Source of the DNA: Gemmatimonadota bacterium
Lineage (GTDB): Bacteria; 4572-55; J002
NCBI GenBank assembly: GCA_003697105.1
Contig: RFFQ01000062.1
Span: forward strand, 1-9,099
DNA: 9,099 nucleotides
Direction: 5' to 3'
Below the pieces are notes generated by a model, which did not search any database, had not been told where the DNA came from, and worked only from the letters and a program-made list of their open reading frames with translations. This document shows, in pieces, positions 1-8,959 of the stretch; positions within the stretch are counted from its first letter, which is position 1; the number at the start of each line of letters is the position of its first letter. A program made the translations under genes and the position numbers.

Positions 1-1661
1 GCATTGATCAGACCATCACCATCCCAGTCAGCACTAACTGCCGTACCATTATGGGTACCACCAATAACGAAGTCCAAACCACCATTTTCACCATACGTGG
101 TACAACCCGGGAAGCTCACACCTGCCGGAATGCGTGCCATCACCGCTATAAGGGAATCACGCGGCAACCCTTCGTTGATACCATCACCATCGGTATCAAA
201 GTCTGCCGCGGCATTTTTATAACTGGTTTTATAAATTAAGGCTTCGCTTTCATCGGGAATACCGTCACAATCGTTATCATTAAACCCTAAGGGATTGGTT
301 TTAAGATAGTTGACTTCATCACCGTCACCCACATAATCTCCAAAATAGTAATCAGAAGAAAATTGAGTCGGATCTGTTTCTGAAGGGTTCGCAACAGACC
401 CCCAAGCAGAACTATCCGTACTTACATCTGATGCCCAATTAACCCACAAAGTTCCTTTATTCGTATCCGAATTGGGAAGAAAAGCACCTTGAGCACCATT
501 ACGGTCAAAGTCTTCTCCTTCGCCATAGTTAGTGTCGCTGGCACCAGAAAGATTAGCATAACCATCAATCCAACCATCAGGTAAACCATCCCGGTCAGTA
601 TCAATGTGAGTGGGGTCTGTCGTTGACGTAGAGTCGTTATCACCGCCAACACTGATGAAGTCAAACTGACTGGCACCATCTTCAGTCCCAACAACAGTGA
701 TGGTGGCAGTACCCCCATTATAGGGAATACTTTTAGAAGAAGCCGTACCATACACCATGGTGGAAGGGAGGTCATTTAATGTGTAGCCAACTTCCACCCC
801 GTCAGCGATACCGTCGCCATCGGTATCGAGGTCACGAGGGTCTAAATAACGCCAGGGCTCATCCGCATCACGGGTGTGATTATTATTATAATCGTAATAA
901 TTCCCAAGAGTCAATTGGTCAGCCGTGCCGGCATTGATGGTATAAGAATACTGCCCTAGGTTTGTCTCATCGGTTCCATCGAGGTCTTTATCAAACGAAG
1001 CACCGATTTCTTCCCCATCAATAATCCCATCATCATCAGAGTCACGGTCTAAAGGGCTAGTACCATAACCGGGTTCCCAACTATCGATAATCCCATCGGC
1101 ATCCGTATCGAGCTTATAGGGGTCGGTCGTCCACCCCATCCCCCATGTCGTTACCACTTCAACTTGGTCTGGAATCGCATCATTATCCGAATCTTTATCC
1201 ATAGCATTGTTCAACCCGTCACCATCCACATCGAAACGCGCTTTAACCGCGGCACTGGCATTCCAGTTGATGGCGGTTACCAGCCCGTTGGCATCCACCG
1301 TAACCATCCCGTCGGTATCCGCGGCCCAATTATCGGCCACCGCATCCGCGGCGGTATTATACCCTAAAAAATAACCGAACAATTCAAAGAAGTCGGAAAT
1401 CCCATCACCATCAGAGTCATCCAACGCCGGATCGGTTTCCCACGTGGTAACATCTGTTGGGTCTGGATAGGGATTCACAATACCGAAAGTACCATATTGG
1501 TTATCGGCACCGCCATTTGACACATTACGGTCATACAATTTGCCTTTCTCAGCTTGAACTTCCGCACCGTCACTAATACCGTCACCATCGGTATCCATAT
1601 TGTACGGGTCCGTACCATATAAGAACTCCGTCGTATCATACAGGCCGTCATTGTCCGAATC
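1..1661 (-). repeat. Array of TSP3-type DxDxDG repeats within the CDS
   Basis: About twelve copies of a 12-13 residue acidic motif are spread irregularly through the coding sequence, most as D-T/S-D-x-D-G-I/L-x-D. At DNA level they show on the plus strand as recurrent short strings such as CCATCGGTATC (near 187, 818 and 1585) that drift between copies. The spacing ranges from about 13 to over 100 residues, so this is a diverged protein repeat family and not a tandem DNA repeat. Confidence 0.8.
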
Positions 1662-1760
1662 AACAACCTCAGCCATTACCGGCGATAAAACCGCCACCGA
1701 TAATAAGAGAACTATGGCACTTAACAGCGAAAACCGACTTAGTGTATCATTGGAAAACAC
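1..1760 (-). CDS. Secreted protein with thrombospondin type 3 calcium-binding repeats, partial (C-terminus off the left edge)
   Basis: The frame is open from a GTG at 1760 to the window edge: 586 codons plus two bases, with no stop. The start is preceded by GAGGAGGT at 1775-1768, 7 nt away. It gives a type I signal peptide: a short n-region with Arg9, a hydrophobic stretch at about 11-26, and a likely cleavage after VMA at residues 28-30. The mature part carries about 12 acidic DxDxDG repeats, at residues 34, 56, 115, 177, 190, 218, 240, 312, 387, 495, 522 and 578. Several follow the classic TSP3 form TDP-x3-DTDGDGIxDGxE. In this family the Asp side chains bind calcium and stiffen rod-like extracellular proteins, so an exported or surface role as stalk, adhesin or scaffold is inferred; the ligand is unknown. 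Segments at about 128-176 and 330-380 lack repeats and may be small beta domains. A longer form could start at the in-frame ATG at 1889. No catalytic domain is visible in the part present. Confidence 0.85.
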   Translation of the reverse strand, partial: MFSNDTLSRFSLLSAIVLLLSVAVLSPVMAEVVDSDNDGLYDTTEFLYGTDPYNMDTDGDGISDGAEVQAEKGKLYDRNVSNGGADNQYGTFGIVNPYPDPTDVTTWETDPALDDSDGDGISDFFELFGYFLGYNTAADAVADNWAADTDGMVTVDANGLVTAINWNASAAVKARFDVDGDGLNNAMDKDSDNDAIPDQVEVVTTWGMGWTTDPYKLDTDADGIIDSWEPGYGTSPLDRDSDDDGIIDGEEIGASFDKDLDGTDETNLGQYSYTINAGTADQLTLGNYYDYNNNHTRDADEPWRYLDPRDLDTDGDGIADGVEVGYTLNDLPSTMVYGTASSKSIPYNGGTATITVVGTEDGASQFDFISVGGDNDSTSTTDPTHIDTDRDGLPDGWIDGYANLSGASDTNYGEGEDFDRNGAQGAFLPNSDTNKGTLWVNWASDVSTDSSAWGSVANPSETDPTQFSSDYYFGDYVGDGDEVNYLKTNPLGFNDNDCDGIPDESEALIYKTSYKNAAADFDTDGDGINEGLPRDSLIAVMARIPAGVSFPGCTTYGENGGLDFVIGGTHNGTAVSADWDGDGLIN

Positions 1761-1767
1761 AGTCGTT

Positions 1768-1775
1768 ACCTCCTC
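1768..1775 (-). promoter_or_regulatory. Strong Shine-Dalgarno supporting the GTG start at 1760
   Basis: The minus strand reads GAGGAGGT, 7 nt before a GTG codon whose translation begins a signal peptide. It is the best ribosome-binding site in the window and decides the preferred start of the TSP3-repeat gene. Confidence 0.75.
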
Positions 1776-1897
1776 TAAAGGTGAAAAATGAAAGTTATTA
1801 TTGTACTTATAAGGTCTGTAACCATCACTACATTCTGACTTGTTAGAAGCACGTCGGAGGAATGAAAAATTATTTTTCACACCATCCATATCGGCTA

Positions 1898-5865: not shown

Positions 5866-8800
5866 TTAAAATTCAGCACCAAGGCTAAATAAGTGTTTGG
5901 GGTCGGATTGGGAGGAAAAATCAGTTGTCCAGGCAATGTCATACTTCAGGATAAAGGGCAGAACGACCATCCAACTGCGAAAACCCACACCCCAACTGGC
6001 TTTCAGGTCTCGCAACCGGAATCTCGAACCCTCACGTTCGGAGCCCCGCCATAAATCTTCGTTGTTCCACGCACTACCTATATCAAAAAAACCAACACCG
6101 CGAATCCCTTGAACCGCTAAACCGGGTAATGGAAATGCCATCAACACCACATCCAAAAACGGAAATCGGAATTCCGTGTTCAATAACGCCACCCGACTCC
6201 CCCGCACCTCATCATAATTATATCCCCGTAACAGCCACGGGCTCCCAATATAAAATTGGCGACGATCTTCACCATAACTGGCGCTTGTTAGAAAACGATA
6301 AGCAAAATTATAGCGTTGCCAGAACAAGTGATACCGGTGATAGAAGAACGTCACATTCGTATAATTCCAAGAACTTAACACCGAGGTATCTAAACTGATC
6401 CGCCATCGCGACCCGTTAACGGGACCCATGGACCCCCAAATCGTGTTATCCTTGACAAGAGAAATCCCCGGCGAGAGTATGGTTCGGCGTTCCACATCCC
6501 CAGAAGGGCGGTAGTAGCCATCCAAACCGCGTTCAAACAATTCTTGCTCCAACCGCATTGTGGTAAACCCGGCTTCCAAGCGCCGAAACCGGTCAAACGG
6601 ACGGCTCAATTTGCCGGTTATTCCGTACATACGTTCCGAAAATAACTGATTGGAGTCAAAAAACTCACCAAAGGTACTCACCCGACCATAGTAATAGCTT
6701 TTATAGTGAAACAGTTGCAAACTATAATCCACCCGGCGAGGTAGATACCAGTATGCTAAAAAAAGGTCTGAATCTTCCAGCGTATTACTAAGGCTGGACA
6801 TTCCCATCCGAATTTGATGATTTCCGAGAACATCGCTTAATGCCACAGCAATTTGAGTCGCCCAGCCATACTCGGTATCATAACCACCTCCGGCGGTAAT
6901 GTAATCCGGCTCAAAACGGAGCTTGTACTTTTTTGAACGGAGATTGATCTCACCTTGCGTTAAAAGGGTCTCAGAAGAGTCTGTAGGGGTGGGTTTCAGG
7001 TAAACCGGTTTTAACGGCTCCAAAGGGAACGGCATCTTGGAAGTGGACATGTCTTTTTCGTCCCGCTCACCGGTAGAAGATGAAACAAACGAATCAACCG
7101 TATCAACCTCAACCCGATCGCGGTCAGAAGAGATGGATTGCAAAGAGTCACGATCAGCCACCTGCAAACTATCGGCATCCATTTCAAGCAAATGTTCCGG
7201 GTCATTCACCAGAAACACATCCCAACCGGCATAGCGAAATCCGGCAAACGCCAACCGTTTCCCATCAGATGACCATGTCGGCATAGCGACCCCAGTGGCA
7301 ACGTTTGTCATCGCTTCAATGGTGTTCTCCGCAAAATTCAATCGATAAAGATTTGGAACCCCATTTTGATCGGAAACAAAAACCAGCCCTTCGCCGTGAG
7401 GTAACCATTCTGGATGTTCTTCTTTAGAGGGCAGATCGACCACACGCTGGATGCTGTAGTCCTTCATATTCATCGTAAAAATATCATATTGACCGACATC
7501 AGAGCGTTGTTCCGTCGAAGGATGATCGGAAGAAAAGGCAATTTGCGAACCATCCGGCGACCATGAGGGCCAATTATCGTCCCACATATCATGGGTCAAT
7601 CGTTGAAGATTGGCACGCAGATCGGCTTCCGAAACCTCACCGCGCAAGTACAAATCCACATCCCTCACCACATACAAATCTGAATATCCATTTTTCAGAC
7701 CCACAAATACAATTTGGGAGCCATCCGGAGACCAATCTGGAGAATATAACCCATCCAGATCAAACTTTAACAGATAGTGTTTGTCGCCATTTTTGACCGT
7801 TACGATGTGCAACCCATCTTGATCACCCGCTTTGGCAGCAAACGCCAGATATCTGCTATCCGGTGACCACGTCAGTTTATTCCGGTCGGTGTGAAGATGT
7901 TCAAAATGCCCTGTCCGCTCGCCGGTTACCAAACTTTTATCAATAATTTTCCCATTGATGGCAGACATCAGAATAATCCGGCTATACTGATTCCAACTTC
8001 CCGATTGCACAAACGCAATTTTATCCCCTTCTGGGGAGAGTGACGGCGCAATGTTGATAAAAAATGTCCGGTCTTCTTCATGCTTTGTCATCTCTTTGGC
8101 GATTTCATGGGGCATATCCCGGTCAACGAGTACGGGCCAATACCGCCGTTGCAACCAAAGTTCCCACTCATTCGTTAGTTCTTTTTTATCCACCCCAAAC
8201 ACCGCTTCCAAAGTGCGGTCAAAATTGCGAAATTTCCGCAAACTATGGACAAGCTCAATCACCTTTTCACGCCCATAACGCTCTTCCATAAACTCAAAAA
8301 TGGACTGTCCCTCTTTATAAATGATGAAACCGTTCGCATATTCCAATTGGGGTATTGGGATTAAATAATCTGAAATGACGGCATCCCGCATAAACATATC
8401 ATCACTGTTATCCCATGTTTTGGAGAAATACTCCGCCATACCTTCCATCACCCAGAGAGGCAACGGAAACACATATGCCCGCCCCACCACAGAATCTAGC
8501 AAACTTCCGTAAATGAGGTCAAATTGGAATACGTGCACCAATTCATGCGTCAATACATGCTCAAACTCCGCGTATGAACCGGTAAAGGGGATCACCACTC
8601 GCGTGCGGAATACTGTCGTGAACGCCCCCACACCTTCTTCAATCATTTCCAGCGAGACGTTCGTCTGTTTGAAATCATTGTGCGAATCATACAGAATAAT
8701 CGGCGTACGGCGGGAAAGTTTGTGCTCCATTTTTTTACTCAGACGGTGGTAAGCATCCTCCGCCATTTCGGCGGTTCTTTGCGCCAATTCTTCCGAGCCG

Positions 8801-8946
8801 GGATAATAAAAAATATCAAAATTTTCGGTTTTAAGGATATACCAATCAAATGTTTTGTATTGAACTTTATTCTGACCATAACCCTGTGCCCACACTGGAG
8901 TGGTGGCAGTGAACACCCACAAAAAGATGAAAACGTACCGAACCAT
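5866..8946 (-). CDS. Secreted gluzincin metallopeptidase, TolB-like propeller and Omp85-like outer-membrane barrel fusion
   Basis: The 1026-residue protein starts at an ATG with AAGGAG 7 nt upstream. It has a type I signal peptide (cleavage after VWA, residue 20). Residues about 30-270 form a peptidase-MA-like gluzincin domain: the zinc motif HELVH at 134-138 and a downstream WVMEGMAEY (165-173), whose Glu168 would be the third zinc ligand. Residues about 295-585 form a TolB/PD40 propeller with six blade motifs of the W/L-SPDGxxIAF type, at 300, 358, 402, 459, 511 and 555. An acidic Ser/Asp-rich linker spans about 587-665. Residues about 670-1026 look like an outer-membrane barrel: alternating aromatic strands, the Omp85 L6-like LLRGYNYDEVRGS (905-917) with the following strand TEFRFPF, and a terminal Phe. 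No POTRA domain is seen. The peptidase and propeller should face the periplasm or the surface; the substrate is unknown. It is a monocistronic neighbour of the eno cluster, with no link visible from sequence. Confidence 0.85.
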   Translation of the reverse strand: MVRYVFIFLWVFTATTPVWAQGYGQNKVQYKTFDWYILKTENFDIFYYPGSEELAQRTAEMAEDAYHRLSKKMEHKLSRRTPIILYDSHNDFKQTNVSLEMIEEGVGAFTTVFRTRVVIPFTGSYAEFEHVLTHELVHVFQFDLIYGSLLDSVVGRAYVFPLPLWVMEGMAEYFSKTWDNSDDMFMRDAVISDYLIPIPQLEYANGFIIYKEGQSIFEFMEERYGREKVIELVHSLRKFRNFDRTLEAVFGVDKKELTNEWELWLQRRYWPVLVDRDMPHEIAKEMTKHEEDRTFFINIAPSLSPEGDKIAFVQSGSWNQYSRIILMSAINGKIIDKSLVTGERTGHFEHLHTDRNKLTWSPDSRYLAFAAKAGDQDGLHIVTVKNGDKHYLLKFDLDGLYSPDWSPDGSQIVFVGLKNGYSDLYVVRDVDLYLRGEVSEADLRANLQRLTHDMWDDNWPSWSPDGSQIAFSSDHPSTEQRSDVGQYDIFTMNMKDYSIQRVVDLPSKEEHPEWLPHGEGLVFVSDQNGVPNLYRLNFAENTIEAMTNVATGVAMPTWSSDGKRLAFAGFRYAGWDVFLVNDPEHLLEMDADSLQVADRDSLQSISSDRDRVEVDTVDSFVSSSTGERDEKDMSTSKMPFPLEPLKPVYLKPTPTDSSETLLTQGEINLRSKKYKLRFEPDYITAGGGYDTEYGWATQIAVALSDVLGNHQIRMGMSSLSNTLEDSDLFLAYWYLPRRVDYSLQLFHYKSYYYGRVSTFGEFFDSNQLFSERMYGITGKLSRPFDRFRRLEAGFTTMRLEQELFERGLDGYYRPSGDVERRTILSPGISLVKDNTIWGSMGPVNGSRWRISLDTSVLSSWNYTNVTFFYHRYHLFWQRYNFAYRFLTSASYGEDRRQFYIGSPWLLRGYNYDEVRGSRVALLNTEFRFPFLDVVLMAFPLPGLAVQGIRGVGFFDIGSAWNNEDLWRGSEREGSRFRLRDLKASWGVGFRSWMVVLPFILKYDIAWTTDFSSQSDPKHLFSLGAEF

Positions 8947-8953
8947 GAAGTAT

Positions 8954-8959
8954 CTCCTT
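8954..8959 (-). promoter_or_regulatory. Shine-Dalgarno of the peptidase-propeller-barrel gene
   Basis: AAGGAG on the minus strand lies 7 nt before the ATG at 8946. It supports this start, which also gives a clean signal peptide. Confidence 0.75.

Follow-up and report, generated by a model that had tools for sequence, protein, structure and literature searches.

The best-studied Omp85 machines, BamA, TamA and FhaC, handle their clients with POTRA domains. At least one POTRA is demanded by the definition of Omp85 in PMC11116518, but not by that in PMC4104836. The part of the latter paper available to us (Heinz and Lithgow 2014) defines a WD40-Omp85 subfamily, in which a TolB-like propeller sits on an Omp85 barrel without POTRA and which its authors liken to a BamA-BamB fusion; no peptidase domain is mentioned there for this subfamily, and in the "Metallo" Omp85 subfamily of the same paper the domain carried is the phosphoesterase domain PF00149 and not Peptidase_MA_2. 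A later paper (Mol Biol Evol 2025, PMC12204202), likewise available in part, describes OMP-TolB-like or FhaC-TolB-like proteins that combine a barrel with a six-bladed TolB-like periplasmic propeller. These are more widely spread than TolB, which is proposed to have arisen from them, and a "Rossmann fold" is reported next to the propeller; the words "zinc", "metallo" and "protease" are absent from the main text as available (PMC12204202). Enzymes are also known in this setting: the enzyme domain of PlpD, a patatin-like Omp85 protein, was once thought to be exported and stays periplasmic (PMC11116518), and BepA is a zinc peptidase that acts on BAM clients (PMC8423444).

The window analyzed here, a stretch of 9,099 nucleotides from a Gemmatimonadota contig, carries a gene at 5866–8946 that an earlier note had read as a fusion of a zinc peptidase, a TolB-like propeller and an Omp85-like barrel. 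We confirmed this observation. The novelty implied for the fusion stands in part, since the pairing of barrel and propeller had already been described (PMC4104836, PMC12204202), while the peptidase is not mentioned in the available portions of those papers. We found no paper on the three-domain combination in a search that covered few subscription journals and no preprints.

Domain order and predicted structure

The gene, which like all of its features given below lies on the minus strand, is complete and encodes a protein of 1026 aa belonging to the group that we call clade A. Its ATG start is preceded, at a distance of 7 bases, by a ribosome-binding site, AAGGAG (8954–8959), read directly from the sequence. 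A signal peptide, recognized by eye, spans residues ~1–20 (8887–8946) and ends in ...TTPVWA; it has no lipobox Cys, and residues 1–21 have low pLDDT in the model described below. The predicted gluzincin-type zinc peptidase domain follows (residues 22–275; 8122–8883) and has, near its N terminus, a motif conserved in the alignment, YGQNKVQYKTFDW (residues 23–35; 8842–8880). Pfam placed Peptidase_MA_2 (PF13485) at residues 62–266 with 46.4 bits against a gathering cut-off of 32.4, and this match, together with HExxH and a downstream Glu, agrees with the gluzincin type of clan MA. The zinc/catalytic motif HELVH lies at residues 134–138 (8533–8547), MEGMAEY, with E168 as the predicted third zinc ligand, at residues 167–173 (8428–8448), and Tyr210, a predicted transition-state-stabilizing residue, at 8317–8319. 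Both motifs are intact and situated as the earlier note had them.

A TolB-like β-propeller occupies residues ~281–590 (7177–8106), where PD40 scored 98.7 bits over four stretches, above its gathering score. It is joined by a variable linker of low confidence, delimited from the model and the alignment (residues 591–670; 6937–7176), to a 16-stranded Omp85 β-barrel (residues ~671–1026; 5869–6936), in which PF01103 matched residues 736–1009 with 42.2 bits against a gathering cut-off of 24. No POTRA model matched the 1026-aa protein at an E value of 1 or less, and the region preceding the barrel is the low-confidence linker, with no POTRA, in the AlphaFold2 model. The proposed order of peptidase, propeller and POTRA-less barrel is thus borne out, with three Pfam domains above their gathering scores.

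Prediction from the single sequence reached only pLDDT 32. An AlphaFold2 model built on a 75-sequence alignment of clade A and clade B proteins reached pLDDT 86.1 and pTM 0.86, with a confident peptidase and propeller, a low-confidence linker (residues 598–666) and then 16 strands forming the closed C-terminal barrel supposed earlier. HELVH sits in helix 125–146 and E168 in helix 164–175, both confidently predicted. In structure comparisons of the model, TolB was the top fold match of the propeller (Z 27.9, rmsd 2.2 Å, 246 residues), in agreement with the resemblance noted from the sequence, and the barrel matched BamA (Z ~21–23, rmsd 4.2–5.7 Å, ~280–310 residues). Foldseek agreed with both matches; the VIA-align matches listed for the full-length model were those of the propeller and barrel domains, which filled the list.

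The RGY motif (residues 907–909; 6220–6228) falls in the loop joining barrel strands 11 and 12, the position of L6 in BamA, and R907 and G908 are present in 72 of the 75 sequences, so that the suggested likeness to the BamA L6 motif holds. E925 (6172–6174; 72/75) is a candidate partner of the L6 Arg within the barrel, matched to BamA E717, and D955, in the FFDIG motif (residues 953–957; 6076–6090), is found in 73/75. The L6 Arg and the barrel Glu and Asp are therefore kept across the 75 sequences, as they are in translocating or assembling Omp85 proteins.

Family, clades and the peptidase site

A genome scan gave at least 431 confirmed relatives, and 80 loci were kept, fetched by the patterns FGxNKVQY or PLWxxEG[LMI]AE. 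The kept loci come from Zixibacteria, Marinimicrobia, KSB1, Calditrichota, Ignavibacteria, Balneolaceae, Chlorobi, Gemmatimonadota, Eisenbacteria, Krumholzibacteria, Latescibacterota, WOR-3 and Coatesbacteria, along with single MAGs labeled Myxococcota and Spirochaetota; similar fusions, which the earlier note had expected in FCB-group genomes, do occur across FCB-type genomes. The protein of one locus on a contig filed as Cryomorphaceae (L081) is almost identical to that of L067, of the Marinimicrobia clade, and the contig is probably mis-binned.

In a quick maximum-likelihood tree of 110 sequences, clade C (16 rows) and clade B (15 rows) each had a support of 100, and the main group of clade A, which includes the window protein, comprised 66 rows with a support of 95. 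Outside its main group, clade A had 12 rows that grouped together, from Calditrichota, Gemmatimonadota and their allies, and a single row from the window's class. In this quick tree the placement of the two longest branches, the clade C copy of the window's genome and L151, is unsure. The phyla of clade C were read indirectly, some of its rows coming from genomes reached through the loci. Clades A and B each cover several named phyla, and single genomes carry two or all three clades, which suggests that the duplications predate these phyla. Judged from these sequences, the fusion is no one-off; the family appears to comprise three ancient paralogous clades, at least two of them spanning several phyla.

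The clade A genes of three draft MAGs are interrupted by single in-frame stops (L058:1122, L070:2413 and L103:7630), one of them beside masked bases. We rejected the idea that these split frames are natural separations of the domains: as lone stops in draft metagenome data they are probably sequence faults or pseudogenes and were treated as such.

Eight residues (N96, R116, H134, E135, H138, E168, E172 and Tyr210) are invariant in all 75 sequences of the alignment, which covers clades A and B only, as is G169 of the MEGMAEY motif. Because the loci were fetched with the FGxNKVQY and PLWxxEG patterns, the invariance of these two segments is partly a product of selection; H134, E135, H138 and Tyr210 fall outside both patterns. 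Mean Jensen-Shannon conservation over the 75 sequences was 0.516 for the peptidase, 0.449 for the propeller, 0.429 for the barrel and 0.246 for the linker. Among the large domains the peptidase is the best conserved, which argues that its predicted catalysis is in use.

The nearest solved relatives of the peptidase, found with a profile of 35 peptidase domains, are the M9 microbial collagenases 7wss and 7esi (E ~0.001), in an alignment that spans HExxH, the WxxEGxAEY segment and then a Tyr-x-x-Gly segment. PF13485 matched 33 of the 35 domains and M9, more weakly, 12; the isolated peptidase domain scored 19.3 bits against M9 (PF01752), below the gathering score of 26. A stand-alone Peptidase_MA_2 protein of 314 aa is encoded elsewhere (L136:4694–5635, plus strand; G000:C140), immediately behind a long gene resembling that of a polyribonucleotide nucleotidyltransferase.

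The window's genome has three full-length members of the family, namely the clade A gene at 5866–8946, a clade B copy (C159) and a clade C copy (C185; L135:4108–6948, plus strand). The last has PD40 and Omp85 above cut-off, and no peptidase model was found in it by a domain-model search. Aligned to the other members, it has QNLNPLW at the place of HELVH, DWVVFGF at that of LWVMEGM and no equivalent of Tyr210; because its identity is low (19%), this residue alignment is approximate. The peptidase region is thus kept in outline and every residue of the zinc site is lost, and the loss of Tyr together with HExxH and Glu speaks for Tyr210 belonging to the active site. In the other clade C sequences that we read HExxH is retained, and so is WxxEG in all but a few. 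The zinc-dead copy shows that a protein of this build can be maintained when peptidase activity is gone. The same genome encodes a separate, ordinary BamA (C150), so the clade A protein is not its main assembly machine, as well as several OmpA/Pal-like domains.

Gene neighborhoods

A gene for a PQQ_2 propeller directly follows the clade B gene on the same strand, sometimes with an overlap of a few bases, in 11 of the 16 cases examined (L101, L110, L112–L115 and genomes G043, G044, G047, G049 and G054). In G048 it adjoins clade B in convergent orientation, in G010 it lies one gene away, and in the remaining three of the 16, the window's genome, G001 and G004, it is not beside the clade B copy. 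The best NCBIfam model for these partners is BamB (TIGR03300), at 169–233 bits against a cut-off of 285, and in Pfam the ACSF4 propeller model outscores the others for most of them, so that "BamB-like" denotes resemblance and not membership. The partner genes (L112:7158–8321, L114:3447–4646 and L115:4038–5198 among others) come from several phyla, and several copies show a lipobox by eye. A PEGA-domain gene comes after the BamB-like gene in some genomes.

For clade A, no universal partner gene was found among the loci examined. RNase R lies directly upstream of clade A in 12 loci of Ignavibacteria, Balneolota and Chlorobi, and in 11 of these a TamB/AsmA-like gene precedes RNase R, in a tight, fixed order on one strand; one member was assigned to TamB with a score of 71.6 bits, and the others through their grouping with it by BLAST. 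The order TamB-like gene, RNase R, clade A is seen upstream at L095, L104, L108, L083 and L043. murA precedes clade A in eight Zixibacteria loci, and an lpxH-like gene is near it in 11 loci of Marinimicrobia and Zixibacteria. Taken together, the neighbors lean towards outer-membrane biogenesis.

Downstream of the clade A gene, the window holds eno, a divIC/ftsB-like gene, engB and purA, which we rejected as functional partners since they are near none of the other homologue loci examined. At 3–1889 (minus strand) it also encodes a large secreted protein with bacterial TSP3 calcium-binding repeats (PF18884), which runs off the window end and is weakly like CglD and MtsD of myxobacteria. A general TamA role for clade A was likewise rejected, since several genomes have another TamB near an Omp85 gene of POTRA-type length; the window genome's own TamB (C175) lies elsewhere, away from the clade A gene.

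Proposed function and relation to known systems

What the computation shows is the set of three domains, the conservation of the zinc site, the L6-bearing Omp85 barrel, the absence of POTRA and the age of the family. We tentatively propose, as a prediction that is quite possible though short of probable, that the protein is an Omp85 machine, facing the periplasm, in which a peptidase and a propeller take the place of POTRA domains and which assembles outer-membrane proteins or controls their quality. A 16-stranded barrel has both of its ends facing the periplasm, which, with the precedent of PlpD, would put both the peptidase and the propeller at the inner face of the outer membrane. They would stand there, the peptidase first and then the propeller, where BamA and TamA have POTRA. 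The propeller would dock clients, which may be unfolded or stalled barrel proteins or lipoproteins, beside the barrel, and docked clients would be either handed on and inserted at the barrel or cut by the peptidase once assembly fails. One chain would then work like BepA, BamB and BamA together. The periplasmic side, the proteolytic activity, the clients and the insertase action are what we infer; protein handling and policing appears the likeliest job because the active site is conserved, the barrel keeps the L6 Arg and its partners, and clade B has a BamB-like gene. The roles that the earlier note had suggested, processing, secretion or envelope quality control, are compatible with these data.

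We consider it unlikely that the protein is a secretion or surface-processing device, whose barrel would export partners in the style of two-partner secretion for the peptidase to trim, or whose peptidase would act externally in the manner of a collagenase. The peptidase is indeed nearest to secreted M9 collagenases, and the L6 RGY and FxDxG motifs of the clade A and B alignment are shared with FhaC-like translocators. Similar proteins have been named "FhaC-TolB-like" in the available part of PMC12204202. However, no constant TpsA-like or substrate gene was found next to clade A at the loci examined, the old three-clade distribution suits housekeeping better than a secretion niche, and the fact that PlpD keeps its enzyme domain in the periplasm (PMC11116518) leans, by analogy, towards a periplasmic and not a surface location. 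The tight same-strand order in which a TamB-like gene, RNase R and clade A follow one another in Ignavibacteria, Balneolota and Chlorobi, with the lpxH-like neighbor in Marinimicrobia and Zixibacteria, would suit a lipid or LPS port, in which an AsmA/TamB-type lipid bridge has the barrel as its outer end and is controlled by the peptidase. This appears improbable, since the TamB pattern is limited to one branch, RNase R intervenes, and several such genomes have another TamB near an Omp85 gene of POTRA-type size, so that clade A is no simple replacement for TamA.

Slightly less probable still is a Tol-Pal-like, peptidoglycan-linked device, whose propeller would bind OmpA/Pal-type domains and whose peptidase would cut wall peptides or envelope lipoproteins. 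TolB is the nearest solved structure to the propeller, murA adjoins clade A in Zixibacteria, the window's genome encodes several OmpA/Pal-like domains, and an origin of TolB from such proteins has been proposed (PMC12204202, available part); yet the TolB equivalog model scores well under its cut-off (114 bits vs. 343), the model of the TolB N-terminal domain is not reported by Pfam in the 1026-aa protein, and the closest peptidases cleave proteins, not peptidoglycan. The full-length zinc-dead clade C paralogue raises the prospect that the peptidase domain serves chiefly as a structural adaptor whose catalysis is dispensable, but we regard this as very unlikely, because the catalytic residues do not vary in clades A and B and are also intact in the remaining clade C members that we read.

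If the assembly and quality-control reading is true, a widespread class with a conserved protease in place of POTRA would provide a second way to feed or police the outer membrane, in clades that occur in phyla whose envelope biogenesis is almost unstudied; the clade B gene and its BamB-like neighbor offer a directly testable partner. The position of the peptidase before the propeller would also bear on the suggested descent of TolB from a barrel-propeller protein. It is possible, though doubtful, that these proteins form an unrecognized ancient Omp85 class, machines that assemble and destroy outer-membrane proteins with one chain and have, in one clade, a BamB-like lipoprotein as partner, and that TolB came from a protease-bearing ancestor. 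Earlier work had described the half formed by propeller and barrel; what appears to be new is that the family has a conserved M9-like peptidase, three old clades and a zinc-dead paralogue, and that clade B has a BamB-like gene partner.

Among known systems, BamA shares with the clade A protein the 16-stranded barrel, the L6 RGY/F and the conserved barrel Glu and Asp, but the clade A protein has a peptidase and a propeller and no POTRA, and scores 40.5 bits against TIGR03303, whose equivalog cut-off is 297. TolB shares the propeller fold (Z 27.9 over 246 residues), whereas here the propeller is fused to a barrel and a peptidase and reaches 114 of the 343 bits required by TIGR02800. The M9 collagenase catalytic module (7wss, 7esi) has HExxH, the third ligand in WxxEGxAEY and Tyr-x-x-Gly in common with the clade A peptidase, at E ~0.001; M9 collagenases, however, are secreted and lack the barrel and TolB-like propeller. 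BepA of Escherichia coli (M48) is likewise a periplasmic HExxH zinc peptidase, and policing of barrel assembly would be the functional parallel, but it is a separate TPR protein of another peptidase family, so the likeness is one of analogy only. PlpD, like clade A, has an enzyme domain N-terminal to an Omp85 barrel, but this is a patatin-like domain with POTRA and not a zinc peptidase with a propeller. By its PF01103 match and 16-stranded L6 RGY barrel the protein falls within the Omp85 superfamily; from the definition in PMC11116518 it departs in having no POTRA. In the OMP-TolB-like proteins, by the description in the available part of PMC12204202, a "Rossmann fold" adjoins the propeller, whereas in clade A a gluzincin-type peptidase precedes it; that fold may correspond to a peptidase of the clade A type. 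A close architecture is that of WD40-Omp85 (PMC4104836, available part), with which clade A shares a TolB-like propeller N-terminal to the barrel and to which it adds the peptidase.
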